A DNA stretch of 64,000 nucleotides from Boothiomyces macroporosus (lineage: Eukaryota; Chytridiomycota; Chytridiomycetes; Rhizophydiales; Terramycetaceae), in contig JADGKB010000034.1 in NCBI GenBank assembly GCA_027604185.1, positions 62,001 to 126,000 on the forward strand. The letters run 5' to 3'. The number at the start of each line of letters is the position of its first letter. Position 1 is the first letter of the stretch. This document shows positions 1 to 63,096 of the stretch, one piece after another. The notes beneath the pieces were generated by a model that was not told the DNA's origin, searched no databases, and saw nothing but the letters and a program-made list of their open reading frames with translations. The position numbers were made by a program, and so were the translations under genes.

Positions 1-837
1 TGTATCACTGCTCTACTTATTTGCCTTACAGCGAAGAAGACTCGCAGCAAATTGAAAGGAAGAGACATTTAGGAAATGGTACTTTTCTTCTTATGTAGAT
101 ATTATTAATATTGTATATTTAGATGGGGATGTTCAATTTGACCCAAAAAGTATAAAAACACAATTTACACACATATATATATTAGTTAAGCACGAAATCG
201 TAGTAGTTAATGGCCAAAGTATTGACGGTTACAGAGTAGCAATGACAAGCAGCGTTGACGTTCCAAAGTTCGGTCCTCCTCTTCCAAACCCACCAGTTTT
301 CGATTCATATATTCGTCTAAACCAGTTCCTTATGGCTAAATGTAACCATTTTCTAATCTAGTAATTAATGGAGAAAACGCCGCTTTGAAAGCTCCAAAGT
401 TCTCCAAACCAAATGAACGCGCACATCATGCAATGTTTGATGATATTGTGGAAGAGTTTTTGCAGCCAGCTAGGGTTCCAAGCAGTAAATCTGATCGCAA
501 AAAAGTTGCCAAATCAATGATTCTTTCCCCATCAGACAAGGAAACGCCAATGCAGATGCACAAGATATTTACACAAGGATTGAAGCAACGCCAATCTTTC
601 CATGGAAGTGCTCCAGAAGTCAATACGCCAATTACTGCTCACTCTCCATTTAATGTGCAAAATTATCCACCACCTCCAGGGCCATTACAAAAACCAAGAT
701 CGGACACTCCATCCAAAGATTCGTTAAATTCGCTAACAAAGCAAGAGCAAGTAATGGAGACTATGGCTGATAGCAGCCCATTAGACTTGAGAAGTTCCCA
801 CTCCAAATCAGAACCTATGCTGACAAAAGGAAAATAG
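1..837 (+). CDS. Rap/Ran-GAP domain protein, 3' part
   Basis: GTPase-activating protein for Rap-type small GTPases. The N-terminus lies before the window. About 264 residues are visible after removing two 20-nt introns (79-98 and 342-361). The spliced frame runs YLPYSEED, then RKRHLGNDIINIV, which carries the family's catalytic asparagine in the GND motif. It continues through FDPKSIKTQF, VDVPKFGPPLP and FLMAKLINGENA, all landmarks of the RapGAP fold. The catalytic domain ends near RAHHAMFDDIVEEF. The last 120 residues or so are Ser/Pro-rich and probably disordered. The stop is 35 bp from the convergent oligopeptidase stop. The domain call is secure; the target GTPase is inferred from the family. 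Confidence 0.9.
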
Positions 838-871
838 TTTAAATAAATACAAGTTTTAGAAAAGGATTTAT

Positions 872-3709
872 TTAGTCATGCCATTCTGCTCCAGTTGTTA
901 GAGCAATAAAGGCATACATGTCGGCTTTCTTTTCGAGAACCATAGAAATTGGCTGGCCAGCGCCGTGTCCAGCTTTGATTTCTAAATTAATAAAAGTTAC
1001 CAATGCGTCCCAAAACAATTTTACCCTTCTTGTGTTGCATTTCGGCAATTAGCTTCAAAGAATGTAAAGGAACAACCCTATCATCATGGTCTCCGGTCAA
1101 AATCATGATTGGTGGGTTCTTGCCTGTTACATTGTGCAGTGGTGAGAAATTCCTCACTACTTCAAAATCTTCTTTGACGTCTGGATCACCATAGTCGGAT
1201 TTCCAGGCATACCCGATGGTGAATTTGTGGAATCTGTACAAGTCCATCACACCTACTTCAGCAACTGCACATCCAAACAGTTCAGGGGCTTGGTTTACGC
1301 ACGCACCGATAAGTAACCCGCCGTTACTTCCACCATTAATAGTAATAAGATTGTGAGAGGTGTATTTTTCTTTTACCAGGTATTTAGCAGCATACTGGAA
1401 ATCGTCAAATACATTCTGCTTGTTCTTTAATCTTCCTTGGTTGTGCCAGCCTAAACCAAACTCACCACCACCGCGCAAGTTAGCAATGCAGTAAATTCCA
1501 TCAAAGTGTTGTACGAATGAAAGAATAGTTGTAGAAAATGAGGGTAAAATAGGAACTCCAAATCCACCATACCCATACAAGACTGCTGGATTTGCAGAGT
1601 TTAGTTCAATATCTTTCTTGTGGATAATGTACATTGGAATCAATGTACCATCTTTTGAAGGATAAAAGACTTGAGTGGTTGTTAAATTATTTAAATCAAA
1701 CTTGACCTTTTGCTGAATGATGGAGTGTGAAGTGTTGAAATCGTATTTGAAAATTTCTCCAGGAATCGTGAATGAAGAAATTTTGTAAAAGAAGTAGTCA
1801 TCCTTTTCCTTTCCGTCTAGTTCAACAACCATCGCTCCAGTTGGTAATTCGATATTCTTGATAAACTGCCCATTAAGATCATAGATTTCCATGACGTGTT
1901 GGACATTTTCCAATCTGACAGTGACAAACAAATTATTGACCGGTAAAACACTTTCTAAAACGCTAGTCTTTTCCGGAATAATAGTTTTGAATCCTTCTTC
2001 AGGTTTCAAGATGTCATAACTGGTGATTTGATTGTTTGGAGCGTTATGAGTGCCATGGAAATAGAAAATGTTGTCTCTGTTGCAAATCAGTCTGTACTGG
2101 AATTCAAATTTGCTAAATTAATATAAACTTACTCTACGATTGGAATGAATTTCAATTCGCCAGTTGGGTTAGCACTTGGTTAACGAAAAAACTTACATGT
2201 AATTGTTAAACTCTTCAATGGCTGTATAATAAACAACATTTTGTGGCTCAGCTAATATTAATAACATTTACTTCCTGGTGCATCTTCTACGAGAATGTAT
2301 TTTCCATCTTCAGTTTGGTGGCCACTAGAGAAATTCGTGTTGATTGGAGATTGGTAGATTTTGATATCATCATCTTGCTTTTGGCTCAATTTATGGTAGT
2401 AAACTGCTGATCCCAAGTTAATATCTGTTTCAGTTCCAGCTTTAGTCTTGTCAACAGCAGGCTTTGGATATTTAATGTAAAGGAAGCCGCTTTCATCCTT
2501 TAACCAATTAACAGATGTGAATTTTGCCCTGATATTAGTAAAATATACCATTCCAGTGGCTCTCCAACTTTGGTTTTGGTTTCAGTGTCCATTACATGAA
2601 TAGATACCCAATCTGATCCAGATTCAGAAATGGTGTAACCAAAATACTTGCCAGATTCAGAGAACGAATAGGCAGACATTGATACAGTTCCGTCTTCAGA
2701 GAGAGTATTTGGATCAAAGAAAATGTCACCCTTTTCACCCATAACGAGAGTGCGGTATAATACTTGCTGACCTTGCAAACCGGCGTTGTAAAAGTAGTAA
2801 TAATAGTTTCCATGCTTTTGATAACCAGAAAACTTTTCAAAATCTGCAGTTTCCTTTAATTTAGCAGCAATCTTTGCCACTGGGTAGTTTGACAAGTACT
2901 TGCGAGTAAGGGCAGCCTGTTCACGCACAAACTTTTCAGTTTCTGGAGAATCCGGATCTTCCAACCATCTGTATGGATCGGCGACTTTATATCCATGTAA
3001 ATCTTCAACTAAATCTTGACGTCTTGCTTCAGGATATTCGAGTGGATACCTTGCCTTTGCAGAAATTAATGGCTTCAAGATTTTGAAAATAACCGCATCA
3101 TTAATATCAAGAGTTTCTCCAACAGCAACATGCAAATCGGACAGTGGAATGTTTACTGTGTTGAAGCGAACCAATTTCTTTTCATCAATTTGAAGATTTT
3201 CCAACTTTGGCTCTTCTTCAGTTGAAACGGCTAATTCACCATTAGAAAGTGCCGCATATCCATTTTGAATATAGACAGATACTCCAACGTCTACGCTTTC
3301 TTGGTCAAAGTAAGGCACGAATCCAAACGTGCCAAAGTACACCAACTTGTCACTGACAAAGTTCCTTTGGATTCCTTGTCCATAATCGCCTTGGTACTTC
3401 AAGTGAAGAATGTAGCTAGAGACTGGGATTTCCTTTTCAAATTCAATTTTAGCTATTCCATCAGTGTTGGTAATTGAAACAGCATCCTGAAAATCCCTGT
3501 TGGTCACAGGATCTTTGTGCCAGTTGATGGACTGGAATGAAACCACTGAGCAGTCAAAAATAGCCAGGTGGTTTGCGTTCAAGCTGATTGACTTTGTTGG
3601 CTTTGATAACGAGAAGCTTGTTAGGAAATATTTACCTGATGGACACTTGGCCGGCAAATTTAGATTTCCCAAATCCTAGAGTGAGCTGATATTTTGTCGC
3701 TTTAATCAT
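872..3709 (-). CDS. Prolyl oligopeptidase (S9A) with M1-peptidase-like N-terminal domain
   Basis: Serine peptidase that cleaves short proline-containing peptides. Removing six introns (3617-3635, 2529-2548, 2252-2271, 2175-2196, 2113-2132, 982-1000; 19-22 nt) gives 905 residues, against about 710 for the usual family member. The S9A part starts near residue 206 with YPEARRQD and DPYRWLEDPDSPETEKF. It ends with the triad Ser761 (GGSNGG), Asp842 (GDHDDRVVP) and His875 (KAGHGAG). The first 205 residues or so are extra. They resemble the N-terminal beta-domain of M1 aminopeptidases: YQLTLGF, TKSISLNANHL, a degenerate FVPYFDQES and a GY.ALSN segment. No M1 zinc motif follows. The ATG at 3709 is the first in frame before the M1-like strand. 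Confidence 0.9.
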
Positions 3710-4088
3710 TTTATTCATTTGTGAAATTAAAATGAACTTTTAAAGGGGAAAAACCACCATGTGATTACCTGGCCGCATCCTTGATTAGATTACTGGGTCA
3801 CAAGAAAATTACTGGTATATATTACACTGTTATTGGCGAAATATTTATTCTATTCTAGAATGCGCTATAGAATAATCGCGACACTAACGGCTTTCATTGC
3901 CTGCCTCTAAAGCAATCGCTTCATGATGCTGATTTTCTACAGCTCGAAAATGCTTCCCGTCAACTTTCTAATTGGATTGCTTAAAATTATCCGCATCTTA
4001 ACCAATAAAAGGATACTCAGTATTTCCAACCTGTTTTTTATTACCAACATGTGCATGTTGTCCTTTTACTTTTTTTTAACTTTCTCAA
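3710..4088. other. Divergent intergenic region
   Basis: This 379-bp AT-rich spacer separates the divergent oligopeptidase and VPS53 genes and presumably holds both promoters. A 16-codon ORF reading MRYRIIATLTAFIACL begins at 3859 but has no continuation with short-intron splice sites, so I do not call it. No RNA gene or repeat was seen. Confidence 0.5.
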
Positions 4089-6497
4089 ATGAACATTAAA
4101 ATCCCACCAAGCCCAGTTTTAAACACCCCATCCGCAATAGCTCTGCTATCTCCCGTCGAGAATTCAGATTCGCCAACTGCCATATTTGAGCAGAAACCTC
4201 GTGAAGAAATAACGATTTCGCAAGACTTGAAGCAACGAATATCATCCGTTTTGGCAACTGAAACCCAGGATTTTCAAGTTATTGCAACTCTAAACGAATT
4301 ATTTCCAAACGAGGAATCGCTGGAGATGGCGGATGAAATATTGCAAAAAACCAGGAGTAGTATAAACAGACTGGATTCAGCTCTTCACACTCTAATACAG
4401 CAGCATTCAAAGGAAAAAAACACAAAAATAATTAACCAAATCCAAGCAGATATCAATGTACTTGATGATTAATTTAGCAACTAGTCAAGCGCACAGAGGA
4501 AATCAAAAAGAAATCCAGAGTGTGCGAGAATGTAATCGTGGAAATTACGCGTGATATCAAAGCACTAGATGAAACGAAAAAGAACCTTGGAGTATCAACA
4601 AGGATATTGAAAAAGATTTATTATTCGGTCAATGCTTTGGAGCAGCTCAAGCAATTTGCATCTAGAAAACAGTATGATCGCGTTGCTGAATTGATGGCGG
4701 TACGAAATACATAATATAGGTGACAATCAAATTGATGGAGCCACTGAAATCAATGAAGGATGTTGCCCAAGTTGTGGCACTTTGCGAAAGATCCTCATCG
4801 TTTCAACTAGAAACAAAAAAGACGATATTTACAGAGTTTGAACATGTATTCTCATCTGGCCTATTTTCAAATTCAGCACCGCTACTATTAGATTCATGTC
4901 TAGTGCTTGAAACTCTAGAGACCGATGCAAAGTATGTAATGTTAATAGTAGAGGTGAATTGATCAAATGGTACAGTGACCTGCAATTGACAGATTATCGA
5001 AACCTGTTTAAAAAGAATCCAGAATTAGCTGGGCTGGCGGACGTATCAAGGAGATACTCTTGGCTAAAGAGATTCTTGAAAACTTTTGATGAACAGCATG
5101 CAATTCTTTTCCCAGAACATTGGAAAGTAGATGATGCTGTAACATTACAATTTTGCTTGGAAACAAGAAAGGACTTTTCGGATATAATGACAAAGGCTGA
5201 GCATGACAATACATTTGATACAGTTGCCATGCTGCAAGCACTCCACACTTCATCCGATTTTGAAGGGAAGCTAGATCTTCGATTCAACAAGAGCCACGAA
5301 GCATCGAAATATTCAAAGATAATCACCAGCTCTTTCGATTCATTTCTGTGGCATTACATTGACATGGAAGATCATAATTTAGCTGAAAAGTTTGAGCCTT
5401 TAAAACAGTCTTTGGGTGAAATCGAAGAAGGGATCTACTCTTCCAGCGTTGATTTATTTTTATTCTACAGACAAACATTTGGCAATTGTGCAAAGTTATC
5501 CATCAAGAAACCATTCTTTGATTTATGCAAAATGTATCAAAAATGGTTAAACAAATACAAAGAAAGTCTATGTTTGAAATTACCAAAAGACGAGCGTAGA
5601 GTATTAACAGAAGATGAGTTGGTAAAACTTTGCGCTATTATTAATACATCAGACTATTGTACTTCTACCACTGGTCAAGTAGCTTTTTTTAATGTTAGCT
5701 TGAAGAGAAATTGATTGAAACGATCGATCCAGATTATAAAACACTGGTGAGCTTTTCATCAGAGACTGAAGGCTTCACAACGTAATCCATATCTAATGTA
5801 GTACCACGGCAACCGCTTTATTGTCTCTTGTAAAATCTGTCGAAAATTATTTTGGAAATGCGTTGAATATCATGTCAAAAAAGAATTGGTCGGCTCTATC
5901 ATCCGTTGGTGATCAATCTGAGCACGTTACTCAAATTGCTCAGGTACTGTCTCAGTATGTACCAATTATACGAAGATCTTTAGCAAACCAAAAACATTTC
6001 CGTTCATTCTGCGACAAATTTGTTGAGACGTTTTTAAATACCATTCAAACCACAATATTAACACGGTGTCGGCCAATGTCGGAAGTAGGTGCAGAACAAA
6101 TGCTTTTGGACACACATTCAATCAACAACATTCTTGTAGCAATGACCATGCTTGGAATGGAAGAAAAGGCACCTCCACCAGCATCATTCACAAAAATTCT
6201 TGGTCGTGGAATAACAAGAATAGATAACCTGCTCAAAGTAACTTTACGCCCAATTGATCCTCCTGAAGCTATCGTAGAAACATACTTTTTGCTGTTCACT
6301 GATCCTAATGTAAACGAACTACAAAAGATTCTAGAACTCAAGGTATATAGTGTTAATTTCAGGGATTGAAGCGAACAGATATGAATATTATCTTGGATCT
6401 GTTTGTTCAAAAAGCACCTCCTAGTGCTAAAATCAAGCTCGAGCCTGAACAGTCAACAAAATTCAGGTTGAATTTTAGTAATTTTATCAATAAATAA
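4089..6497 (+). CDS. VPS53: GARP/EARP complex subunit VPS53
   Basis: Subunit of the GARP tether that captures endosome-derived vesicles at the trans-Golgi. Six introns, all exactly 20 nt, lie at 4458-4477, 4700-4719, 4932-4951, 5679-5698, 5782-5801 and 6343-6362. Splicing gives 762 residues, close to the usual family length. Landmarks are LFPNEESLEMADEI, VEITRDIKALDE, QYDRVAELM, RRYSWLKRFLKTFDE, then VGDQSEHVTQIAQ, VGAEQMLLDTHSI and GLKRTDMNIILDLF. The N-terminal half is predicted coiled coil, as in other GARP subunits. Every intron is needed to keep the conserved frame, so this gene is one of the clearest proofs of 20-nt splicing here. Confidence 0.95.
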
Positions 6498-10408: not shown

Positions 10409-12759
10409 ATGGCAAATAATGACTGCACAAGCTGGATGCAAACGATTTACCCAAGCTTGTCAGGGACACCGGCCAGTAGTAGCGGTACGTATTGCTGTGG
10501 AATCAATGGAGTTTCATGCTCTGACAATGGGCTAAGTATACTGCAAATTAACCTTTCAAACAAAAGTTTAACTGGTCGCTTGCCTCCTGAAATAGAATCA
10601 CTCACTCATTTAACTGTCCTGTAATATCAGCTCTAACTTAGAAATTTGTCATATAATCAGCTCACTGGGGGTTTACCGTCGAATATACAGCAAATGGTTG
10701 CCCTTCAATCGCTGTATTTGCAAAACAATTCAATTAGCGGAACCATTCCGAATTCCATTGGAAGCTGTACAAACTTGACTGCAATAGATTTCAGCAATAA
10801 CAAGTTGACTGGAGGGTACCCAAAAGAAATTTCTAATTTAAAATCACTCTCAGTTCTGTACTTTATAGCTGATTTAGAAATCTATTTGGAAATTATTTAA
10901 GCGGCACTATTCCTATTGAAATTCAAGGAATGCCAAATTTTGGAAATTTCAATATTACAACTCAATCCAATCAACAAACAATCAGCAATTCATCGTCCAA
11001 CAATAGCTCGCTTTTGAATGGAATTATCATTGGGATAGCACTGGTAATTGTGCTTACGTGTATCCTATTTTTGTACTGGTTACTTGTAATTAGAAGAAAG
11101 AGATTGGCCCATGAACAAGGAATGCGAACAGTAAACACTGATTTGGATCATAGATCCAATTCAAAGCGCGAACCATCAATTTATGTATTTCCTGAAAATA
11201 GAGATATCTATAGTTCGCAGGCTACCTTTTCAGATCTGCCAACCTCTCCAAATGCTTTTGCTCCTCTCCTGCCAGTTACAAAGGATACAAACTATCTGAA
11301 TAGCCCAGTCTATAAACCTGGGTTTGCCCCACACCAATCAAGTTACTATAACTACGAAATGGACTACCTTCAACACACCTACCCTCAGCAACTTGTTGGC
11401 CCATCTCAAGAAACCTTTTCACCCAGAAATATTTACAATCAGAGTCAACCGAATCTAAACGTTTATCAATCAATGATCCAAGTGCTACCAGAGCAAAATG
11501 TATGTGCATCACCAATGGTTGATGTAGATGTCATGCCACCAAAGCTTGATGTTGAAAATGAAAGTGAATTACCCCATTTGAAAGAAAAAGTAAAGAAATA
11601 TGTAGAGTCCCTGACAATTAAAGGGAATATGAAAGCAGTGTTTGAAAAATATGGGGAAGATGGCGTCACAATTTCGTCTGGTATGCAATCCCATCCAGCA
11701 CACCCTGAAAATAGTACAGATAACAAATCAGAAGTGTCCAGCGCAGATGGACGTGCAAAAAGTACATCATTGGAGGCTCTTTCGAATGCGCTAAAGATGC
11801 CTTCAAAAAGATTAGAAGAGTCACTTTTGAAATCCCCCATAGCTTCACAGGTATCCATATCGAATTCCCCATTTGTTGATCCTAATTTGCCTTTAAAACC
11901 AGAGATTACTCCAGCGATTAGCTCTCCACAAGCGAAATTAGATACAATTTACGAAGAGCCCTGCCATGCTCTGCCTGATATTGAAGGAATGCTTTTTGAA
12001 AGATCGGATTCCGTAGATTCAAGAAGCGTAAACACGCCCAACTCGGTTTCGGCTTCAAATTTATCCAGATGGTCCAACATTGAAATGCCGTTCATAATGA
12101 AAAAGCGATTTGAAGAAAATGTTACCCCTGATATATGGCAAAACGGAATTCCAAACAAAATAATCTTCTTTGCGCATGGCGAAAACGCGGTTCAGATATT
12201 TGCTTCTTTTGTGCAGTTCTTGGTGTTCAAATCAAACATTATCAGAAGGGTAATTGCAAACTAATTGTAGGCCGTCTTTCAATTCACTCCAACAAAGGAT
12301 GATGAAATTGCAATTAATATTGGTGACGAACTGGAAATAGAACGTCATCTATTCAACGGTTTTTGCTTTGGAAACAACATTACTACCGCTTCAGAAGGTC
12401 TATTCCCTGCAAAATGCATCGAACCTCCATTTTCGCCAGTGCTTGAATTAGTTTATGTTAACACAATCAATTCAACTCCAATTGAAACACCTCAAAAAGT
12501 CTTATACGCTAGTCAAACTTTTCCGAATCTGGTTCATATCCAACGCCTTAGAAGCAATGTAAACGCAATCAATGAGAAACTGCAGCAAGTTATTAGCGAT
12601 ACTGGAAACAAGATAAAGATTATATTATGTGGGGATTCGCAGGTCTGCCATTATCTGGAAACAAATTTGTTGATTGGAGATCCAAAATTAGATCTGTCAG
12701 TTATTTCAGATGATTATGACATTAAAAGCGGGAAATATCCAACATTCCTGACATGTTAA
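10409..12759 (+). CDS. LRR-transmembrane-SH3 receptor-like protein
   Basis: 762 residues after removing introns 10621-10641, 10858-10877 and 12250-12270 (20-21 nt). The N-terminus starts directly with an LRR cap (NDCTSWMQTIYP, CCGINGVSC) and has no classical signal peptide. Plant-type LRRs follow (NLSYNQLTGGLPSNI, LQNNSISGTIPNSIG, DFSNNKLTG). A transmembrane helix (IIIGIALVIVLTCILFLYWL) and a roughly 350-residue Ser/Pro-rich tail come next. The third intron joins the tail to an SH3-like domain: AVFQFTPTKDDEIAINIGDELEIE, then GFCFGNN, then EGLFPAKCIEPP. The last 100 residues include KIKIILCGDS, faintly like a Rossmann strand. Likely a surface receptor coupled to proline-rich partners encoded nearby (inference). 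Confidence 0.85.
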
Positions 12760-12784: not shown

Positions 12785-14540
12785 TTAAGGTATTAATAGT
12801 GGCGGTTGCTCTTCAATTACTTCGTTTTCCATCTTTCTTGGAGGTTCCAAGTTGCTTTGTTGTATTATAACTGGTGGCTGAGCATTTATCGTTTCCTGCA
12901 CTGATTCAGGCTGTTGCCGGGCCTGTCTAACAATCACTGGTGGTTGAGCGTTTATTATTGGTGAATCTGAAGGCTGGAGAGGTACAATTGCGGGTACAGG
13001 TGTGAAAATTGGAGGCATCTGAGGATCTTCCAGTGGCAAATTGCCCTTCAATTCATGAATTACAGGCAATTCGGCTTGTGGTGATCGGTCTAGTGCATTA
13101 AAACTGTTTGAATATTTTTGGCTGTTTGGCGAAATTTGTGTATGATGAGTAGACAATACAGACTGTCTATGGTCCAATACAGCAGTATCCACTGTATCAC
13201 TGCGGTTCATTACATACTGGCTCAAAGTATCGTTACTTGGCGCTGCATACTGACCTTCAAAGTGTTGCATCTGATTTAACGGAATTTGCTGTGTCATTTG
13301 AGGTGGAGACAGGGCATTCTGCTTATAGTAAGAAGTATCATAGGATGGATTGCCATATACAGTGTTTGAATATCGATTTGGGGCAGGATTAAAATCCTGA
13401 TATGGATTGGCTATAATCGATTCTCTCTGGTAAGCAGAATTTAATGGTTGTTGACTTGGGGTCGTCTGTAGTGTTGGTAAATTTGGAGGCGATGCCTGAA
13501 ACAGTTGGTTAGAATTGGAGAGCATGTTGCGCTTTTGTTTTCTCTTTGTTATATACACATAGAATGCAACCACTGCAGCTGCGACGATTACTACTACAAT
13601 ACCAATGGTGATATATACCCCATTATGTGGTGAAGTATACGTACCAGGTGCCGTTTGATTTCCAAGCCTATTGTTAAGATTTGGATTACTTGAAATTGTT
13701 GTAATTCTGCATGTTCTTTACTTGATTTGGAACAGTTAAATCAAAATGATTACCGCTAAGATCCAAGTACACCAACTGCGTAAGTTTTGATAACTCCTGA
13801 GGAATAGGTCCTTGAAGATTGTTATCATCCAGGTACAATTCAGTCAACTGATTCAGCTGTCCAATAGCAGGTGCTAATTGGCCTCCAATTCCGGTATTAC
13901 TTAGCGATAGATATTGGAGTTTTGTTAGAGATCCAATAATAGGGAACAGCGTCCCTTGCGAAAAATCGTTGTTGTCCGCCTCAAAATATGTCAACTGGAT
14001 CAAATTTCCCAAAGACGACGGTAGCGGGCCAGTGAACGAATTTCCTGATAACGATCTACATGAGCATATAATTACAAGGCAGTGAGCTGGTTTAAATTGC
14101 CAATATCGCTAGGCAGTGATCCTGATAGTGCATTGCTTCCCAAGTCCAAGATTTCCAATTGAGGGAGATTGTACAGCCATGTGGGGAACCCTCCACTCAA
14201 ACTCGTTCGAAACAAATATCTGATATCAATTTCAACTTACAACTCTTGTAAATACTGCAATCCTGATATGGAATTTAGAGGCCCGCTTTGTAGCTGTATA
14301 TTGTCAGAGATATTAAACACTCGAAGATTTTTCAGCTGACCTAACTGTGATGGAATTGTTCCCTTGAGGCTGGAGGAATTCAAATAACTGGGTTAGCAAA
14401 GCATACATTTCAACAATATTTTGGTTCTTGCAGATGACTTGTATATTGTCACAGCATTTCGGTGCTTGCAATAGCCTGGCGGTACCTATGAGTGCCGGTG
14501 CTATTGTATTCGTGTATAATTGGCAGTCTGGCAAAGACAT
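12785..14540 (-). CDS. LRR-transmembrane protein with repeated PP-hydrophobic tail motifs
   Basis: 557 residues after removing introns 14388-14406, 14220-14240, 14056-14075 and 13668-13689 (19-22 nt). It begins MSLPDCQLYTNTIAP and CCDNIQVIC, an LRR N-cap without signal peptide. LRRs with LxGxIP-type consensus follow (SLKGTIPSQLGQL, NSFTGPLPSSLG, NNLQGPIPQEL). A transmembrane helix (VYITIGIVVVIVAAAVVAFYV) leads to a Tyr/Gln/Pro-rich tail. The tail ends with three copies of a QPP-hydrophobic motif: NAQPPVIV, NAQPPVII and EEQPPLLIP at the C-terminus. The same motif recurs in the next membrane protein upstream. Its gene converges with the LRR-SH3 gene (25-bp gap). Confidence 0.88.
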
Positions 14541-49175: not shown

Positions 49176-50157
49176 ATGGATTTCTGGAAAAGTATCACCC
49201 CATTCCCTGAAAAAAAGTATTCTGTCGAACAAATCCCTAATCTCAAAGGAAAGATTGCAATCGTTACTGGTGGAAATACTGGTGTTGGGTTTGCAACTTG
49301 CACCGAACTTGCCAGAAAGGGTGCCAAGGTATACCTCGCTGCAAGATCAGATGAAAGAGCCAATGCTGCTATTGCTAAAATCAAGCAAGAAATTCCGGAT
49401 GCCGACATTGTTCATCTGAAGCTTGATTTGCAAGATTTAAAGCAAGTAAAGTCAGCCGCCGATACTTTTAAATCCAAAGAGGCCAAGCTTGACATTCTTA
49501 TCAACAATGCGGGGATCATGGCTTGTCCTTTTGCCCTTTCTAAAGATGGAATCGAAACTCAGGTACATTGAAAACTAACAAAAGTTTGCTACCAATCACG
49601 TGGGACACTATTTGCTCACCAGAGAATTGATTTCCACTTTGCTCAAAACTCCAAACCCAAGAGTAGTCAACCTCAGCTCACTGGCTCACTTGCACGCTCC
49701 TGAACATGGTATTGAATTTGACAAGATTAACGACGAAAATGCACTCAATACTTGGGCAAGATATGGTCAATCCAAACTTGCAAATATTCTCTTTACTAGG
49801 GGATTGAACAAGAGATTTGGAGATAAAGGCTTGCTTGCCAACAGTGTCCACCCGGGTTGGGTCAACACTGAATTGGATCGTGGTATCCAACAATCTGCTG
49901 GAATTTTTTACACCATTACCTATCCAGCAAACTGGTTGACTCAAAAGTTGATTGCATTGACTCCGCTTCAAGGCGCACTTACTTCCCTTTACTGTGCTAC
50001 TTCTCCTGAAATTGAAGAAAAGAAGATTAGAGACAAGTACTTTATTCCTATTGCAAATGAACAAGAATCTTCTCCGCTTTCGCGAGACGAAGCTCTCTCT
50101 GAAAAGCTCTGGAAGTTTACTGAAGATTTGGTAAACGAAAAGTTGTCAAAGAAATAA
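49176..50157 (+). CDS. Short-chain dehydrogenase/reductase (retinol dehydrogenase-like)
   Basis: NAD(P)-dependent SDR. One 22-nt intron (49563-49584) is removed to give 319 residues. The cofactor motif is VTGGNTGVGFA and the structural motif LINNAGIMACP. The catalytic motif is YGQSK (YxxxK), with upstream Ser in NLSSLAH. The layout matches the fungal/animal RDH11-WWOX-type group. The gene is on the opposite strand to the 7-TM paralogues and splits the array into 3 + 2 copies. Substrate unknown. Confidence 0.92.
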
Positions 50158-51505: not shown

Positions 51506-52420
51506 TTAAGGTCCTTGGGATTGAGAAAAGTAAGCATTGTACATGGCGGTAGTCTTTTGATCCTTGTATGAAGTAGTACCGTCTTCACTAGAGTTGTTGG
51601 CCAATTCAGCAGCCAGCATATGGCAAATGGAATAATGCAGCAAGATTTCTACAATACTACCTACAAGCGAAACGAATCTGCTATCCTGGTTCAAGGCAGG
51701 GAACATCATTGCCAAACCAACCAAGCCGTTTACGATCTGGATACCAGAGATTCTAATATAGTTCTTTCCTAATTTTCTAACTACACCATCAGTGATTCTG
51801 GCAATATCTTTGAGTACATACAAAATCCAGAAAGTAGACAGCAAACGTGGGATACAAACTGCACACTGAATCAAATTCACCAAAGTCAAATTACTGAATA
51901 TTTCTGGCAATTGGATGTTGTATGCAGTGGAATAATCCAATAGCAAAAGGAATCCAGTAATAAAGATGCCAAGCATAATGACTACTCTTAATCCTTCTGC
52001 AATATAAGCTTGACTTGGTCTGACAGCTTTCATGATTGCGATAAATTGAACAAATTCGTAGAATGCAATAGTGGTTGCACCAGCCCACCAGAACAAGGAA
52101 GCCAATACACCCAAGAATGCACTGATATCACTAGAGACATCATTGCAGTGAATGATCATGACCAAAAAGTAATACATGTTAACAAGAACGAAAAGCCCCA
52201 TGGCCATATATCTATTCTTTCTTGTGGTAGTAGTGACAATGGTTGCTAAATCCATAGCTAATGTCAAGAAGAGCATAAATTCTCCAAGTCTATCATACGC
52301 AGTTGTAGAGTTGAACAAAGTTGGTGAGGATTGACGCACAAACAACTTTACAGTTTCAATTGGATTAGCAGTCACCATTGCTGTGCTGCACAAGAATACT
52401 ATGAGGTTGGTAAGAGACAT
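51506..52420 (-). CDS. Tandem 7-TM family protein, paralogue E
   Basis: Intronless, 304 residues. Signal peptide MSLTNLIVFLCSTAMVTA, then FVRQSSPTLF and STTAYDRLGEF. Helix 3 reads WWAGATTIAFYEFVQFIA; then CIPRLLSTFWILYVLKDIA, DGVVRKLGKNYIRISGIQI and FVSLVGSIVEILLHYS. A TATAAAAGG box is at 52448-52456, about 30 bp upstream of the ATG. The tail (SYKDQKTTAMYN) differs from the other copies. Most like paralogue A in helices 2-3. Confidence 0.87.
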   Translation of the reverse strand: MSLTNLIVFLCSTAMVTANPIETVKLFVRQSSPTLFNSTTAYDRLGEFMLFLTLAMDLATIVTTTTRKNRYMAMGLFVLVNMYYFLVMIIHCNDVSSDISAFLGVLASLFWWAGATTIAFYEFVQFIAIMKAVRPSQAYIAEGLRVVIMLGIFITGFLLLLDYSTAYNIQLPEIFSNLTLVNLIQCAVCIPRLLSTFWILYVLKDIARITDGVVRKLGKNYIRISGIQIVNGLVGLAMMFPALNQDSRFVSLVGSIVEILLHYSICHMLAAELANNSSEDGTTSYKDQKTTAMYNAYFSQSQGP

Positions 52421-54064
52421 GTCTATAAGTACTGTTTCCTTGTGTTGCCTTTTATAAAACCGCTTGTATCAGGTGAGTGAAGGCTCTTTACTGAGGCGCC
52501 TCCAGTACCCCTTTTTAGCGCCAGTTGTTCTTATCGTTGGCAATGCCCCATTGCTCGGTCTGGGACCAAAGCTAAAAGTTTGTCCAATCTTTTTCTGAAA
52601 AATTGGTGCTAAAATACAATAGATCAGTGATTTTATGTAGTATTATATCTGGTGTTGATTGAGTCGTTTTCGATTGAGTATTTTCGTAGTTTCCCAGTCG
52701 ACTGATTTTTGTTCCCTTTTTATCCAAATCGAGTTTCACAAAGAAAATAGTTTTGGAGCAGTAACCATATATGTTTAGGGAATAAATCTGATTAAACAAA
52801 CAACTACGAGGAATAAAAGTAGGCATTCCGCACTCATTTTGGCCATTTCGATTAATTATCTTTTAATTCATGCATTGTACAATGAGGGCCACAAAAACAG
52901 TCAGGTTCCCAGTTTCAGAACCCATTGAATATGCCCCATTTTCGAGTGTTCAGATTATTTATGTTGGAAAATAGAGTGAAAATTAAGTAGCATGTCGACC
53001 CTATTTACCCATGAATTCACCTTGTGCTTTGAAAAGGACGCTTGTAAAGCCTACATTTACGTCATGAAAAACCCATGAAACCAGAATAATCAAAAGAGTA
53101 GAGTAGCCAATTGATAGAGGAATTGAAGGTATAATCAGTAGAGTATTCACTCATAATTTACATGCGAGTGTGGTTAGTGGAGGCGCATCCTTGGCAATGA
53201 GTGGCGATACATCCTTTTGAAATTCTGTCAGACTTGAACGTCTATCAATAACCAGAGTTCATGCGGAAACTTTTGCTGTTGGGGTAACACAAGGCATTTC
53301 AAATCCATTGGATACTATCCAATCCTTCTACAGCTGGGCTATAGAGATATCTTATGGAAGATCTCAACAGAGCAAGTATTTTTGAGACAGGTAATAAAGA
53401 ATTTGGAGATGAATTTCTGTCATTGCAAGATTATTTCGTTTGATTCAGTACAAAAGAACTAGATGTCGATGAAAATACACTTCTACCCTTGATATTGATG
53501 AGAGAATTGTCCATTTTGCAAGGCAAGACGACAAATTTATCTACACAGATAATGTTAAACGATAAAGGGATCAAAATCCCGTGAAGAGAGGTCAGAATTC
53601 CTACATATTTGAGTTGGGGTTTCATCGTTCCTTGAGGAGGTCTCATATTCCTGTCTCTACCAAGGATATTGAATTTATATTAATCCTGTTGTTTGTGCTG
53701 TACTAATAAACAATTCCCAACAGTAATTACAGAAATAGTTTACTCCAGATTTATTCTCAACTCTCAGAATGTCATGGATATTACTCTTGATTACTAATTC
53801 AAAGCAGCCGCTTGGTAATTATCCTAATGGAAATCAGTAATTCAACAAAATGTTGCTCCTTTTATAACTCGAACGAGCGATTGTCTTATCTGTTGTTACA
53901 CAACCAAGCGGACCAATGGTTTGGGCTAAATTAGAATGCCTTTCATTTAATCACACTCAGTCATCACCCCAATGTTACACGAATTTCCTTTTTCGTTTAA
54001 ATTAAGAGATGGGGCTTGACCTGCGCTTTTCTTTAAAGGACTCTAAATTTTTTTAATTGCAAAA
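52421..54064. other. Large intergenic region
   Basis: About 1.64 kb between paralogue E and pyruvate kinase, the longest gene-free stretch here. Only short unsupported frames are visible, such as MEDLNRASIFETG near 53354. No RNA gene or clear transposon was recognised. It may contain the remains of a decayed gene or distal regulatory DNA. Confidence 0.4.
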
Positions 54065-55805
54065 ATGAACAGCACGTATATCGAACAATCTAGTAAGAAT
54101 TCATCTGACAATAGCTCGCCCGGTCCAGATAAAAAGCAAGATCATCTGCACTATCGGTACGCTATAATTAATCGCAGGTCCAAAAACCCAGTCTGTCGAA
54201 GCTCTTGGCAAATTGATTGAAGCGGGAATGAACGTAATGAGAATGAACTTTTCCCACGGAACTCACGAGGTATTTCCAATCTGACCCAGTATCACAAGAA
54301 GACCGTTGATAACTTGCGATCCTACCTCGCATCTTCAAAATCACCAAGAACCGTCGCCATTTTGTTGGACACTAAAGGACCAGAAATTAGGTTATCGATT
54401 TGTTAACAATAGATCAGGAAAGTTGGTTGATCACTGTGACAAGAATTTGGTTGCTGGAAGTACTTTTACATTCCATAATGATGAATCACGATTAGGTGAT
54501 TCCACTCAAGTTGCCACTACTTATAAATCATTGGCCACTACCGTCGTCCCTGGCGATAGAATCTTGGTTGATGATGGTCTCATTGGAATGGTGGTCCAAT
54601 CCGTTGACACCGAAAAAATGGAAGTTGTCTGCACTGTTGAAAACGACGGAGTTTTGGGCGAAACCAAGGGTGTTAACTTGCCAGGAAAAATCATTGATTT
54701 GCCTGCAATTACCAAAAAGGATGCAGCAGATATTCAGTTCGGAGTCGAAAACAACGTAGATTTTATTGCTGCTTCATTCATTAGAAAGGCTTCTGATGTC
54801 AATGAAATCAGAGATTTGATCAGGGGAACTGGAATCAAGATCATTTCAAAGATTGAAAACCAAGAAGGTCTTGACAACTTTGATGAAATTCTGGATGCTT
54901 CTGATGGTATTATGGTTGCTCGTGGTGATTTGGGTGTAGAAATTCCAGTCGAGCAAGGTGATTTAAACTAATCATAGTCGCTAGATTCCAAAAGATGATG
55001 ATTAGAAAATGTAACATTGCTGGCAAGCCTGTTGTTACTGCAACTCAAATGTTGGAATCCATGATTGTCAACCCACGTCCAACCAGAGCTGAAGCTACTG
55101 ATGTAGCAAACGCAGTTTTAGATGGTTCAGACTGTGTGATGTTGTCTGGGGAAACTGCAAAAGGTGCCTTCCCTACCTTGGCTGTCTCGATGATGGCTAG
55201 AATTTGCCGGGAAGCAGAGGCTGATATCAACTACTCTGAACTATATCCATCTCTCAGAAGACATTTGCAATTGCCAATATCCGTATCTGAAGCTGTTGCT
55301 GCAAATGCAGGTATGTACTAAAAGTTGTCATGATGAAAAGAGTCAGGGAGCCTCTGATGTATTTTACATGGATGAGTTAGACTCTGTGCGGCACTTGTTT
55401 GGCGCTTTTGAACAACATTTTGATCAGACTAACCCTAGTAAAAACCAGTTGGGACGTGCATGCTGCATTGATTGTTGTATTGACTCAAAGCGGTGCTACT
55501 GCCATCAACATTTCAAAGTACCGTCCAATCGCACCAGTATTGGCAGTCACTGCTTCCCACCAAGTTGGTAAGTACTTTTAATATTAGCTCGCCAATGCCA
55601 AGTATTAAGAGGTATATATCCATTAGTTGTTGAATCCATGTCTGGAACTGAAAATATTATTCATCGTGCAATGCTGTGGGGTGTTAAAATGGGTATGGCT
55701 CAAAAAGGCGATGCAGTTGTAGTGACTTCTGGTGTTTTAGAACAAATTGCAGGTTCTACCAATATTATGCGTGTATTGAACTGTGTTGGCTTTGAACCAA
55801 ACTAA
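54065..55805 (+). CDS. PYK1: Pyruvate kinase
   Basis: Final enzyme of glycolysis: phosphoenolpyruvate plus ADP to pyruvate plus ATP. Seven introns (54093-54114, 54157-54177, 54270-54289, 54391-54412, 54958-54977, 55311-55438, 55568-55587) are removed to give 495 residues. Six are 20-22 nt; the sixth is 128 nt. Motifs: [84 protein letters not shown] and [10 protein letters not shown]. The C-terminal domain ends [12 protein letters not shown]. Donors are varied (GTTATC, GTGATT) yet the frame is perfect. Confidence 0.96.
55320..55421 (+). ncRNA. Possible intronic box C/D snoRNA
   Basis: Inside the 128-nt sixth intron of pyruvate kinase. A terminal stem (AAAGTTGT with ACAACATTT) flanks a perfect C box ATGATGA (55330-55336). 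A CTGA D'-like box (55354-55357) and a GGATGA C'-like box follow. The D box position reads TTGA, one mismatch from CTGA. The size (about 102 nt) suits a C/D snoRNA. This would explain why the intron is six times longer than normal. No rRNA target was identified. Confidence 0.4.
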
Positions 55806-56842: not shown

Positions 56843-56889
56843 ATAAATGTCTTGTAAATAGTGCCTACTTTTTTTTGACTTTTTTTGAA

Positions 56890-58375
56890 ATGGTGGTGGA
56901 ACTAACGACTTCTAGAGTCGATAAAGGGACTTCAAAGTTTGCGCCAAATATTAAACCGAAAGCAGTCAGGAGGAAACCAAATGCCGGAAACAATTCCAGT
57001 GGAACTGCTGCTCCACCCCCTACAGCACCTGCTGATCCAGCACCAGCAGAAGCAGAGACAGAAAAGACACCAGTAGCAAAGCGGAAACGATCATTGTCGA
57101 TATCAGGATTGCCGAAAGGATTAAAGTCACCTGTTTTGACATTTACTTCTCCCCCAGCTCTTGATACATTGACAGAACTTACTGCCACTCAAGAAACCCT
57201 AATAGCAACTCCTCCACCAATTAGCATAGAAAAACCTGTAAAACCGGTGCAGAAAGGAAATATTATTGCGATACCCCAGCGGCGACAAAGTATCGCACCC
57301 CTTTCAGCATCAATTCACACTCCTATTGATATACCTCCAATATTCACCAACCCAGAAATCAATATTGAAACAGCAACAATGACAGAGCTGATTACCCATC
57401 CATTCCCTAAAGGAAAAAAGTCCAAAAGAGAAGAAGCTAGGTTATTGGAAATCAAAGAAGCCAGAAAGCGCAAAAAGGTAGAGGAAGATGTAAAGGAAGA
57501 AGTGAAACCAAAAGTAATACCTGAAGCACAGTATTTTGCATTTAATTTAGGTCGGCTCCCGCTGAGGCGTTTGTGCTGGTTGATGGTCAATTGGTTTTCA
57601 ATCAAGCCTCTCTTCAAATGCCTGTACAGCAAGATTTTATAGAAGAGGGTGATGTTATTGAGGAAGATGCGCAGTTGAGATATGTAACGTCCGCATCTTT
57701 CAGACGAAAGCACAAACTGTCAGCATCAAAGTGGACTGAGCAAATGACATTGAAATTCTACGATGTACAATTTTTTAACAAAAGGGGCTATCTTACTTTG
57801 GGACGGATATGAAAATGATTAGTTACATGTTTCCAGGAATGACCCACAAACACATTAAACTAAAGTTCAAACAAGAGGAAGCAAAGAATCATCATTTAGT
57901 TACTAAAGCGATCAGAGAGCGCAAGAAAGCGCCGCCAGAATTAAGACAGAGGATATTAGCCAGTATTGATGCCAAGCGCACTCTGGAAAATGCACAGTAT
58001 GTAAACAACCCAGCCGAAACATCGACTGTGAAGAGAGAACCCCCAACAGGTGGACTAAAAGTTGAGGAGGAATCGCAGCATGAAGAGGAGAAAGAAAAGG
58101 AATCTGAAGTGGAGGAGCCAAAACCAAAGAAATCTGTGACTTTTGAGGAGCCAGTTCAAGAAAAATTGCCTACATTAGAATTAAAACCAAAAACCCTAAT
58201 TACCAGTGGCCCAGCTGGTCCAAAAGCCAGAAGGAAAAAGAAAGTATTTGAAGATGAAGTGTTGCCTGAATTAGAAGCACCAGCAGAGGCAGAAGAACCG
58301 GAAAGTGCGCCTGCACCTACGATGAGAAAGGCCAGGGCAGTAGCTCCACCAGAAATTGCGTCTGCAAAAAGATAA
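56890..58375 (+). CDS. BDP1: TFIIIB subunit B'' (BDP1)
   Basis: RNA polymerase III initiation factor. Introns 57531-57550 and 57765-57784 (20 nt each) are removed to give 481 residues. The N-terminus is Pro/Ala/Lys-rich. The conserved core begins APAEAFVLVDGQLVFN. The extended SANT domain reads SASKWTEQMTLKFYDGLSYF, GTDMKMISYMFPGMTHKHIK and LKFKQEEAKN. The second intron lies within the SANT domain. The C-terminal third is acidic and Lys-rich. It is a single-copy essential factor in fungi, so this is a strong case for 20-nt splicing. Confidence 0.92.
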
Positions 58376-58399
58376 TAGTACTAATATACATTTTATTAT

Positions 58400-59879
58400 T
58401 TACACCAGTAGTGGTTGCCGATTATCCGATCTTTTCGCCGAATGTGAGCTTGTCTTTCTGGATACAATCTTCATTGTGTCGCTAATTCGAGTTGTAAGTG
58501 AAAGATGTAACATTAATGAAAATACACTAAAACCAGTGGCATCCTGATAGGCAAGGTCACTTCCTAACAAGCTGGTATGTCGCTTTATATAGCCAACTGT
58601 AACATACCCTCCAATTGAAACTATTTGACAAACAACGACATGCGGTAAATACGGATCTGCTCTAATCAGGTCCTTAAATTTTTCAAACAATGGCTTATCA
58701 CCCAAAAGTAGCAGACTGAGCAAGATAGGGGGCAAGCAATCCCAAAGATACATAAAGAGGATCCAAAAGAAAGAATATGTGTTCCACGTAATCAAGAAAT
58801 TTTGTAATCCAGGGCTAAGCTTAGCAATCAAGTTGTCACTGCCCCCATTCAACAAATAATCGTAATAGCTTCCTCCATTCAGTAAAATATGAATGAAAAC
58901 AACCGCTACTTGAAAGTAATATATCGTGAATTGTCTAAATTAAAAGTGATTACCTCGTCTTACCGAATAACACCAAATTATACAAAAAGCTGGACACAAT
59001 TGTCGACAACAGCGTGCCAAAATTAAAAAACAGTGTGCGGATCTCTGCGAAAATAGACATGGATTCTTCAGACGGAAAGATAGTTGCCCAGAATATCAAT
59101 GAAAGTATTGACCACGCAAGAAAACACAACTGATAAACAAGAATTAGGTGGTTGAGCAGTTTCTTGTTCGCTTTGAAGGTGTAGATTGACTTGATTGGAC
59201 AATACAGAGCAAGCAAGATAGCAGAAGAGTACATGGCCGCGCCAATGTAGTCAAATGTGATATGGAAATGTGGTACCAGTGCTGAAAGAGGAGTATATTG
59301 AATCCATGCGTAAACCATAGTGGCATCTGTAAAGATTTTATATTCTACATGAACGTTTCCCAGAAGGGGTGATGCAATATTCCGTGGTTGTTCCATGTTG
59401 ATAATTGTGTAATTCCCGATACATCCAAATTTACTGTATATTGTAAAGTTGTATCTCTCGCATGTGTAATAGCCATCAAAACAGGTACCTTCTTGGGCAT
59501 GTATTAACATCATGTAATATCCAAATAAGGAATGCCTGTCATTTGCCGAGAGTTTACAGTATGAATTTGAGTTGGCTGCTGTAGGCACCACACTATTCAA
59601 ATCCTGGTACCAGGACGTACTGCCACTTTTGTAATATGTATCCAGTAGTGATACGGTACAAGCAGTTCCGTTAATTGGAACATAGCAATTATCTGTATCT
59701 CCGACTGTAAAATCGCTGAAATGAAATCGAAAGAACGAGGGCCAAGTTTCGTTTAGTTTGTTATCGTACGAATACGGATTGGATATGTAGAATACGTAGA
59801 TTGTGTCAGGAGCAGTTTGACAGTTTGGGGCAAAGAATTGATTCTCAACAAGCAGATTCGCGGGTTCGATGTTTGACAT
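58400..59879 (-). CDS. 7-TM protein with large Cys-rich ectodomain
   Basis: 486 residues after removing one 19-nt intron (58935-58953). About 205 N-terminal residues contain many Cys and N-glycosylation sites (NETW, NGTAC, NFTIY, GNYTI). Seven hydrophobic segments follow (starting HITFDYIGAAMYSSAILLAL). The C-terminal tail is short, Ser/Arg-rich and ends RQPLLV. Topology matches a receptor, but no GPCR signature was recognised. No signal peptide is evident at the ATG (MSNIEPANLLV). It is unrelated in sequence to the 7-TM array at 44-52 kb. Confidence 0.82.
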
Positions 59880-60013
59880 GAAAAGTTACACGTCTTTTTT
59901 TCATATTAAAATGGAATCTATGGTCCTGAGTATCACATTTCTATTGTTTACTTGTCCGGAAATCTTTTCGTTTTGAAACTTTTTTAATAACCGAGATGAT
60001 AAGAGAAACTATA

Positions 60014-61757: not shown

Positions 61758-62210
61758 ATGCAATCAGAAATTGCAAATCAGATTTGCTCAATTTTAAACA
61801 CCAGTTTATCAGATGATTTGTTTACTAAAGCGTTTAATTTAAACCTGATCGAGACTCAACTACAGCTGAAATCAAACGAATTACAAAAATTACTGGAAAG
61901 GATTCAAAATGAACATTACAAGATCACCAAAGAACTGGAAATACTGGAGCCAAAACCCAAAGAAAAAAGAGACGTTGATTTACTAAAAGAAAAGAAATTA
62001 CAATATATGGATAGAATCAGAGATCAGGAACTACCAGATGTAGATTTACTTGAAAAAAAGAGGTTGCTAGTAATCAGACTCTACAATGAATACAGAGAGA
62101 AACAGAATCGATACCAAGCGCTTATAAACCTGCCTCCAGACATTAACCTTGCAAAAATGAAATTGGAAATTCTCAGAAAACAAGTGGTACCTCTAATTAA
62201 TGTAGAATGA
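61758..62210 (+). CDS. Small coiled-coil protein, possibly augmin HAUS1-like
   Basis: Single exon, 150 residues from ATG 61758 (upstream TTG ignored). Nearly all helical and highly charged (KSNELQKLLERIQNEHYKI, EKRDVDLLKEKKLQYMDR). The C-terminus contains YQALINLPPDINLAKMKLE. This 'LPPD..LAKMK' ending reminds me of small HAUS/augmin-type coiled-coil subunits, but that link is weak. It could equally be another microtubule or kinetochore coiled coil. Confidence 0.6.
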   Translation: MQSEIANQICSILNTSLSDDLFTKAFNLNLIETQLQLKSNELQKLLERIQNEHYKITKELEILEPKPKEKRDVDLLKEKKLQYMDRIRDQELPDVDLLEKKRLLVIRLYNEYREKQNRYQALINLPPDINLAKMKLEILRKQVVPLINVE

Positions 62211-62396
62211 GAAAAAGCAGCAGCGATTAGATTTATTTAAAGTTTAGACTTTAGTCTTTTTTGTATTTGAAGAGAAGCAATCCTCCACATCAGGTTAATA
62301 AAATCTTGCATTTGTAGAGAAAGTTTTGTTCTAGAACGGCCGCGATTTAATTCGGACGAAAATGAGAGCGAATTGTTTATTGAATAACCGCAACTT

Positions 62397-63096
62397 TTAG
62401 ATAATGCCGGCTCCGCCGTAGCCTAATCCACCACCTGAATTACTCTCTGCTTACCCATTCCGCCGCCTAAGTGAGATAGATCGTACCCATTCCGCCATAG
62501 CCTAGACCACCTGAATCAATAACATTTACCCATGCCATAACCTAAACCACCTGGATCAGTTAAAATTACCCACGCCACCTGGATTACACTCTCTTTACCC
62601 ATTCCAGCACCTCCTAAACCACCTGAATTACTCTCTGCTTACCCATTCCGCCGCCTAAGTGAGATAGATCGTACCCATTCCGCCATAACCTAGACCACCA
62701 AATTCAGTAAGACTTACCCATTCCTCCACCTAAATCAGACCAAGCTTACCCATTCCTCCACCCAAACCACCATATCCACCTTGATTAACTTTATTTACCG
62801 AATCCACCGAAACCTGGGAATCCTCCGTAGGCACCTACACCACCACCATAATTACCATATCCTTGATCTCCAGCACCAGCTTCGTTCCATTCAGTTCCTC
62901 GGTTCCAACTAGCACCTTGATTCAACCCTTGTGCGGCAGCAAGTGCACCAAGCTGATCTCCATAGCCATTGTAACCTATGAATCTCTTTTCAAAAGTAGG
63001 TGTTGCTGCAGGAGCAATAGCACTAGTAGTCACAGTAGGAACACTTTGAAAATCAAAGATGTTTGCAGTTACAGCACCCAATAACAGTGAAAGCAT
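62397..63096 (-). CDS. Secreted Gly-rich protein assembled from micro-exons
   Basis: 164 residues from 11 exons. Exon 1 (62799-63096) encodes a signal peptide (MLSLLLGAVTANIF), a Lys-Arg site (TFEKRFIGYNGYGDQ) and a Gly/Tyr region. Ten tiny exons of 30, 12, 15, 12, 24, 9, 21, 24, 12 and 38 nt follow. Introns are at 62780-62798, 62730-62749, 62690-62717, 62655-62674, 62623-62642, 62579-62598, 62551-62569, 62511-62529, 62467-62486 and 62435-62454. Nearly all exons start GTGG and end ATGG in phase 1, encoding GGxGYGGMG-type repeats. Reading through the introns meets stops. TATAAA at 63121-63126 is 25 bp upstream of ATG. Likely a wall or adhesive protein. Confidence 0.8.
62431..62699. repeat. Duplicated exon-intron segment in Gly-rich gene
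   Basis: An 81-bp segment at 62431-62511 recurs at 62619-62699 with one mismatch (188-bp offset). Each copy contains two complete introns and the exons between them (12 and 24 nt in one copy, 12 and 15 nt in the other). Introns 4 and 9, and introns 5 and 10, are thus identical. This shows amplification of exon-intron units as a block. Confidence 0.9.

Follow-up and report, generated by a model that had tools for sequence, protein, structure and literature searches.

The window analysed here is a stretch of 64,000 nucleotides (nt), bases 62001-126000 of contig C34 of Boothiomyces macroporosus, a fungus of the phylum Chytridiomycota (Rhizophydiales, Terramycetaceae by taxonomy) whose assembly comprises 15.2 Mb in 216 contigs. 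Its predicted genes are interrupted by introns of about 20 nt, which are the subject of this report. Reading frame, homology and motif confirmed, at the level of the DNA, that these short introns are real, and pooled data supported that they are the norm both in the window and in 20 further stretches of 10 kb from contigs C1-C20, which together with the window make up a 264-kb sample. The features of the window are given below, with positions counted from its first base and intron lengths in nt in brackets.

1-837, + strand: gene fragment; introns 79-98 and 342-361 (20 each), weak calls in a model that overruns the window edge and whose translation is out of frame
872-3718, - strand: prolyl oligopeptidase; introns 982-1000 (19), 2113-2132 (20), 2175-2196 (22), 2252-2271 (20), 2529-2548 (20), 3617-3635 (19)
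4089-6497, + strand: VPS53; six 20-nt introns, 4458-4477, 4700-4719, 4932-4951, 5679-5698, 5782-5801, 6343-6362
10436-12759, + strand: leucine-rich repeat (LRR)-type membrane protein (by eye); introns 10621-10641 (21), 10858-10877 (20), 12250-12270 (21), from the gene model only
12785-14540, - strand: LRR-type membrane protein (by eye); introns 13668-13689 (22), 14056-14075 (20), 14220-14240 (21), 14388-14406 (19), from the gene model only
21125-23694, - strand: ankyrin-repeat protein (by eye); intron 22884-22903 (20)
29081-29905, + strand: DDE-type transposase-like open frame (by eye)
29993-30501, + strand: predicted gene; intron 30261-30280 (20), from the gene model only
30997-31390, - strand: ribosomal protein uS13-like (by eye); intron 31292-31313 (22)
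31971-33431, + strand: mitochondrial EF-Tu; introns 32047-32066 (20), 32826-32847 (22), 32992-33012 (21)
33502-34211, + strand: leucine-rich repeat gene (by eye); introns 33887-33906 (20), 33984-34002 (19), 34154-34173 (20)
34999-36078, + strand: predicted gene; intron 35180-35200 (21)
36317-40356, + strand: ABCC transporter; 11 introns starting at 36416 (19), 36581 (22), 36673 (20), 36906 (20), 37209 (19), 37863 (20), 38489 (21), 38724 (20), 39002 (20, GC-AG), 39450 (20), 39774 (20, GC-AG)
40559-41506, - strand: DHHC-type gene (by eye); introns 40904-40923 (20), 41103-41121 (19)
41543-42445, - strand: DHHC-type gene (by eye); introns 41879-41898 (20), 42045-42063 (19)
42738-44054, + strand: DCAF11-like WD40 protein; introns 42816-42835 (20), 42934-42952 (19), 43051-43069 (19), 43222-43241 (20), 43312-43330 (19), 43614-43633 (20)
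44388-44550, + strand: U1 small nuclear RNA (snRNA) with the canonical 5' end AUACUUACCUG; RF00003, 68.8 bits, E 4.8e-17
49176-50157, + strand: short-chain dehydrogenase-like (by eye); intron 49563-49584 (22)
51506-52846, - strand: predicted membrane protein; intron 52788-52807 (20), weakly called and linked to the gene across an unsupported gap of 169 nt
54065-55805, + strand: pyruvate kinase; short introns 54093-54114 (22), 54157-54177 (21), 54270-54289 (20), 54391-54412 (22), 54958-54977 (20), 55568-55587 (20)
55311-55438, + strand: 128-nt intron of pyruvate kinase, from GTATGT to CAGACTAACCCTAG; the sole long window intron with homology support
56890-58375, + strand: putative BDP1-like gene (name from the earlier note introduced below); introns 57531-57550 (20), 57765-57784 (20)
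58400-59879, - strand: predicted membrane protein; introns 58935-58953 (19), 59716-59736 (21)
61758-62247, + strand: predicted coiled-coil gene (by eye); intron 62187-62205 (19)
62397-63096, - strand: glycine-rich, one gene or two; eight introns of 19-20 nt at 62435, 62467, 62511, 62551, 62579, 62623, 62730 and 62780, with exons of 9-24 nt parting the first six; the least certain set, in low-complexity sequence

These introns were called by a gene model that was fitted on the calls of a motif-free finder and accepted GT or GC donors. In the window it made 83 calls, 73 of 19-22 nt and 10 longer, the short ones measuring 19 nt in 16 cases, 20 nt in 41, 21 nt in eight and 22 nt in eight. An earlier note on this DNA, made from the letters alone, had counted 76 introns, 73 of them of 17-22 nt and 42 of exactly 20 nt. 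The 73 short introns were recovered, 41 of them of 20 nt, but the range contracted to 19-22 nt: no intron of 17 or 18 nt was present among the window calls of the trained model, whose floor lay at 19 nt. Comparison with homologues covered one of the ten longer calls, the 128-nt intron; several of the other nine bridge neighbouring genes. Two of the 11 ABCC introns (39002 and 39774) are of the GC-AG type, and a 56-nt ABCC intron proposed with GT-only donors was superseded by a 20-nt GC-AG intron once GC was allowed.

The motif-free finder takes its codon usage from long open reading frames; between chosen end dinucleotides it is allowed to pass over 10-80 nt, under a flat prior on length. In the 264-kb sample it placed 320 GT..AG gaps, 162 at 19-23 nt and 79 at exactly 20 nt. 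The control mean at 19-23 nt was 25.7 ± 5.0 gaps (range 17-38; 13 dinucleotide pairs, GC-AG with its 14 gaps excluded), and at exactly 20 nt each of 14 other pairs gave 3-10 gaps; among the pairs tried, the peak was confined to GT-AG. With this finder no excess of GT-AG over the controls was found at 10-16, 17-18, 24-42, 43-46 or 47-80 nt. In the same sample, the trained model called 431 introns, of which 388 measured 18-25 nt and 43 were longer. The short-intron statistics use the 388, since the 43 calls above 25 nt were left out without individual checks. Their lengths were distributed as 18 nt: 1, 19: 65, 20: 175, 21: 78, 22: 52, 23: 13, 24: 3 and 25: 1, and the motif-free peak had the same place and floor, on a noisy base. 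GC donors occurred in 12 of the 431 calls, eight of these being 19-22 nt long. The density was 1.97 short introns per kb of modelled coding sequence; extrapolated by simple proportion, this would correspond to ~22,000 short introns genome-wide. With most introns at or below ~25 nt and within a narrow range (388 of 431), the genome matches the ultrashort-intron genomes of the nucleomorph or heterotrich type in intron size, and the 20-nt mode claimed in the earlier note was recovered in the larger sample.

Homology was counted across the junctions of six conserved genes, by eye for prolyl oligopeptidase, EF-Tu, DCAF11 and ABCC and from a script printout for VPS53 and pyruvate kinase. Ungapped alignment extended over 29 of the 38 short junctions and over the single long one (128 nt). 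All six VPS53 junctions were gap-free in Terramyces and in most other chytrid proteins covering them, and all seven in pyruvate kinase (six short plus the 128-nt intron) were continuous in Polyrhizophydium, Batrachochytrium, Gorgonomyces and Spizellomyces. Alignment to proteins of known structure was ungapped at four of six junctions in prolyl oligopeptidase (PDB 6jci), two of three in EF-Tu (PDB 6gfu), five of six in the DCAF11-like gene (DCAF11, PDB 9ptu) and six of 11 in ABCC (PDB 8sx7), four of the last six falling within a domain match that is weak (40 bits). The nine uncounted junctions comprised two in prolyl oligopeptidase (one uncovered, one beside a 3-residue gap), one in EF-Tu (uncovered), one in DCAF11 (edge) and five in ABCC (three in weak or gapped parts, two outside the alignment shown). 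The earlier note had held that six 20-nt introns in VPS53, and short introns within conserved ABCC, pyruvate kinase and DCAF11 genes, could not be annotation noise; this held for VPS53 throughout, for six of 11, six of six and five of six short junctions in the other three, respectively, and, given the excess over the control pairs, for the set.

Public records bear on the same junctions. A 1551-bp contig (source 'lgn', taken as Logan) encodes a protein of 497 residues, P0027, with 87% identity to the pyruvate kinase of the window; it is closed across every junction of that gene, and the contig is probably the transcript of a relative. The VPS53 protein of the window shares 86% identity over its full length with that of Terramyces sp. 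JEL0728. It also matches a B. macroporosus record, with 100% identity across 68% of its length; this record starts after intron 2 and diverges at intron 6, but joins the exons across introns 3-5. In Boothiomyces sp. JEL0838, the pyruvate kinase record is without the 14 residues of a 42-nt exon between two tiny introns and also deviates at the 128-nt intron, and that of Globomyces sp. JEL0801 has residues missing at two of the junctions affected in JEL0838. Some 20-nt introns thus appear to be already implicit in public annotation, and no remark on them was met in the literature searched. Public chytrid gene models can be damaged by such introns, as both Boothiomyces records examined (VPS53 and pyruvate kinase) lose coding sequence at them.

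Two further arrangements were observed in the window. Within the glycine-rich region, 62397-62678 (- strand) holds six or seven introns in 282 nt, with exons of 9-24 nt and two intron sequences that each occur twice; this microexon array was perhaps made by tandem duplication. Between 44619 and 52378 (- strand) lie five similar genes for multi-pass membrane proteins (by eye), intron-free in the GT-donor models, with the dehydrogenase-like gene among them.

The short introns carried a readable branch site. In the motif-free set, a perfect YTRAY was present in 119 of 171 gaps of 17-24 nt (shuffled mean 33.5, maximum 45; 200 shuffles), and 92 of the 171 had its A at a distance of 5 or 6 nt from the final G (mean 6.7 and maximum 15 in 500 shuffles). 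In the trained set, with the position of the motif left free, the branch A lay at position 14 or later in 354 of 388 introns (14: 125, 15: 159, 16: 49, 17: 16, later: 5) and at position 13 in none; its distance to the last G was 5 nt in 163, 6 in 153, 7 in 22 and 4 in 15. A motif search confined to 3-7 nt ahead of the last G placed the A of 387 introns at 14 (133), 15 (174), 16 (56), later (22) or earlier (2), with the consensus YTAAY and T at -2 in 98%. The two spacings were roughly independent, with some lean toward a total of 20, and the 14+4 combination of an 18-nt intron was observed once vs. 5.5 expected, a combination that is also penalised by the length prior. Fourteen nt to the branch A and 5 nt to the end thus give the floor of 19 nt. 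The degenerate or absent branch signal reported for some ultrashort-intron genomes was not seen here, where YTAAY is strong and mostly anchored; the CTAAC/TTAAT-like branch packed against the AG, as described in the earlier note, was borne out. Its donor GTANNN was right as to GTA, but preference beyond +3 is weak (+4 A 59%, +5 T 44%, +5 G 21%, +6 T 54%). Between branch and AG, there is no room for a polypyrimidine tract in the ultrashort introns.

The GT-AG or GC-AG ends and a branch site complementary to U2, which carries GUAGUA, are those of U2-type introns. U12-type introns have an RTATCCTT donor and a TTCCTTAAC branch; no such signature was found in the consensus, single introns not having been scanned for it, the donor being GTA with weak A, T and T at +4 to +6 and the branch YTAAY. 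The U1 gene of the window scored 0.7 bits below the Rfam gathering score of 69.5 and was therefore missed by a default scan, its 5' end being unchanged. Two U2 genes and one U6 gene, canonical in their pairing parts, were found in the genome; the two U2 genes (L001 and L002) are diverged, at 142 and 135 bits, and identical across the branch-pairing part. Genes for PRP8 (searched with its N-terminal domain), Slu7, Prp18, SF1 and a U2AF65-like protein were present, each with introns of 19-24 nt in its model. With U1 just under and U2AF65 under the family cut-offs, the genome thus encodes U1, U2, U6 and the core proteins looked for, as expected for U2-type introns. The lack of a polypyrimidine tract had suggested that U2AF65 might have been lost; this was rejected, as a complete-looking gene is present (family search 230.7 bits vs. 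a cut-off of 310.3). No missing or odd part among those tested explains the tolerance of short introns. The earlier note had pointed to a spliceosome that tolerates this geometry; the spacing is as tight as it claimed, but the parts examined are ordinary and a changed machine is not indicated.

We consider these to be ordinary U2-type spliceosomal introns shrunk to a steric floor, with a probability of roughly 0.9. The helix between the 5' splice site and U6, about six intron nt, would abut the short U2/branch helix with almost no linker, so that 14 nt would be the minimum that the first step permits, and about 5 nt would be the minimum that brings the AG within reach for the second. Deletion may have brought nearly every intron down to both limits. 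The exceptions, a few introns of 43-46 nt and one of 128 nt, would retain a strong donor and, upstream of the branch, an extended pairing with U2; such a helix would not fit into the ultrashort introns. Here we infer helix contact and branch use from the observed sizes, spacings, motifs and parts list.

Several points weigh against this reading. Splicing itself was deduced from the DNA. Because the trained model learned from calls that it had made itself, the sharp edges of its length distribution are partly self-reinforced. In 34 of the 388 trained introns the best motif stood at positions 9-12, with the branch assigned by motif and not by lariat; we take these as chance matches. In the motif-free set this applied to 22 of 119 best motifs, at positions 8-12. 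A guess prompted by the short branch-AG spacing and by a listing for Stentor, that the second-step factors Slu7 and Prp18 had been lost, failed, both being present. RED was considered as a possible reason why short spacing is tolerated; RED_N was not found in a family search of the genome, a search that does not show absence. Where pairing with U2 was calculated, five of nine long introns, taken one by one, paired better than their shuffled versions at the 5% level, and the shuffle control for short introns is imperfect, since it moves the fixed donor.

The longer introns were sought genome-wide with the strong consensus GTAAGT N0-30 CTAAC N2-3 AG, which can see lengths of 15-46 nt. Its 75 distinct matches fell at 19-23 nt (64), 26 nt (one) and 36-46 nt (ten), and nowhere else in that range. 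Three bases separated CTAAC from AG in nine of the ten long matches vs. 31 of the 65 shorter ones, and an AG stood within 6 bases upstream of CTAAC in seven of ten vs. 10 of 65. Gene models for J-domain, TPR, NudC-like, STT3-like and other proteins (named by eye) use seven of the ten, of 44-46 nt, as introns, and removal of each extends the open frame across the site, least so for L042 (208 codons vs. 198 at the acceptor and 37 at the donor). One of these models holds a further 43-nt intron outside the pattern. These eight and the 128-nt intron formed the long set for U2 pairing, which summed to -85.1 vs. -49.8 ± 6.4 for shuffles (0 of 1000 reached it). The short set, 254 of 383 introns (129 without TAAY at the usual place being left out), paired with U2 less well than shuffles (mean -2.8 vs. 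-3.5). From these data we tentatively propose, at rather less than even odds, two discrete geometries: a compact one with 14-16 nt to the branch and short U2 pairing, and an extended one with a strong donor, ~37 nt or more and a long helix between U2 and the branch, separated by a nearly empty zone. If so, the gap would be a mechanical discontinuity in spliceosome assembly, measured directly by the two hard spacings.

It may also be, with a probability likewise short of one half, that the ultrashort introns are real but that the 43-46-nt class is an accident of the search pattern and no forbidden zone exists. The pattern fixed GTAAGT and CTAAC and was blind beyond 46 nt, and its reversed form gave 117 matches genome-wide vs. 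80 for the real one, so that the claim of a long class rests on gene context and U2 pairing and not on counts. The motif-free finder had shown no excess at 24-42 nt (47 vs. 91) or 43-46 nt (8 vs. 18), and a motif-gated search of the 264 kb yielded a single long intron, of 128 nt, and three control searches yielded none. Of the ten long matches, three are doubtful: C1:153634 makes more sense as an intron of 19 nt, and neither C1:208358 nor C88:52137 has clear gene support; all three were excluded from the pairing set. Such an accident is harder to reconcile with the gene models that use the other seven, with the 43-nt intron that the pattern missed, and with the upstream U2 complementarity, which was not a selection criterion.

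Some further observations concern these matches. Identical 45-nt introns occur 21.6 kb apart at C3:193597 and 215214, the first in the STT3-like gene (by eye), as a recent duplication or an assembly copy. The same 21-nt intron-like string occurs three times on contig C143 (578, 2599 and 4620) at a spacing of 2021 bases, in a tandemly repeated gene or an assembly repeat. A small nucleolar RNA inside the 128-nt intron was considered and rejected, Rfam giving one unconvincing match of 21.3 bits vs. a gathering score of 54, on the opposite strand.

Removal by a non-spliceosomal route, either excision from the DNA at a different stage of the life cycle or bypassing by the ribosome, is very improbable. 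Ciliate internal eliminated sequences and bypassed segments have sizes near those of the ultrashort introns, and the case here was made from DNA, but the GT/GC..AG ends, the branch motif at fixed spacing, the canonical pairing parts of U1, U2 and U6 and the core factor genes are spliceosomal, and other dinucleotide pairs give no peak. Chance or annotation noise, i.e., gaps that rescue frames in low-complexity or misassembled sequence, has a still smaller, practically negligible probability and is refuted for the intron set as a whole by the excess over controls, the residue-level continuity in six conserved genes and the public Boothiomyces and Terramyces proteins that already join several short introns, although every control pair yields some gaps, a few window calls sit in low-complexity or poorly framed models, and single unsupported calls could still fall.

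Read as U2-type introns at their steric floor, the Boothiomyces introns belong to a size class that is known outside fungi, in a nucleomorph, in Stentor and in Mikrocytos. In the literature searched, in which subscription journals are thinly covered, no report of a fungus with a 20-nt intron mode was met, in line with the earlier note, which knew of none. Within that literature, what appears to be new is a fungus in which such introns are the norm, a branch site held at a mostly fixed place, and a rare class of longer introns that pair more extensively with U2. Yarrowia, Trichomonas and Giardia differ in having intron-poor genomes, and the introns of Yarrowia and Giardia are mostly longer. According to the extracts cited, these three share with Boothiomyces a branch anchored at a fixed distance from the AG and no polypyrimidine tract (PMC2483917), and the shortest Trichomonas intron has 23 nt (PMC12316389).

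The earlier note had attributed such sizes to nucleomorphs and ciliates. This holds for the nucleomorph of the chlorarachniophyte Bigelowiella natans, as far as the cited extracts describe it: its introns of 18-21 nt have a near-identical narrow range, are numerous and have a largely GT(A) donor (PMC10245619, PMC2483917). Shorter introns exist, however, in Stentor coeruleus (15-16 nt; PMC9505925) and in the reduced parasite Mikrocytos mackini (16-17 nt; PMC10245619). The B. natans nucleomorph is a reduced endosymbiont nucleus and, in the excerpt of a 2008 survey, is given without a branch-point signature, as are Paramecium and dicyemids (PMC2483917); Boothiomyces departs from all three in its strong, mostly anchored YTAAY, carried in a fungal genome of 15.2 Mb. 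Mikrocytos shares the narrow ultrashort class, but it has a reduced spliceosome and, by the cited account, 224 introns (PMC10245619), whereas in Boothiomyces 388 short introns were called in 264 kb alone. In Stentor, as the cited portion describes it, ultrashort introns are likewise the norm, U1 and U2 motifs are canonical, and the branch A at position 10 of 15 lies 5 nt before the end, the commonest spacing in Boothiomyces (PMC9505925). The distance from 5' splice site to branch is at least 4 nt shorter there and no strong branch consensus is described (PMC9505925); Slu7 and Prp18, entered as N/A in the Stentor table, are present in Boothiomyces.

For the human B complex, a geometric argument in the cited passage puts the distance required from 5' splice site to branch at about 52 nt, barring structural change (PMC6692369). 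In most Boothiomyces introns, 13-15 nt seem enough, with spliceosome parts that, where identified, look normal. As the branch can be read from the sequence, minimal spacings from 5' splice site to branch and from branch to AG can be obtained from hundreds of introns, unlike in lineages without a branch signal, and the introns of Boothiomyces may act as a natural ruler for the smallest spliceosome substrate.

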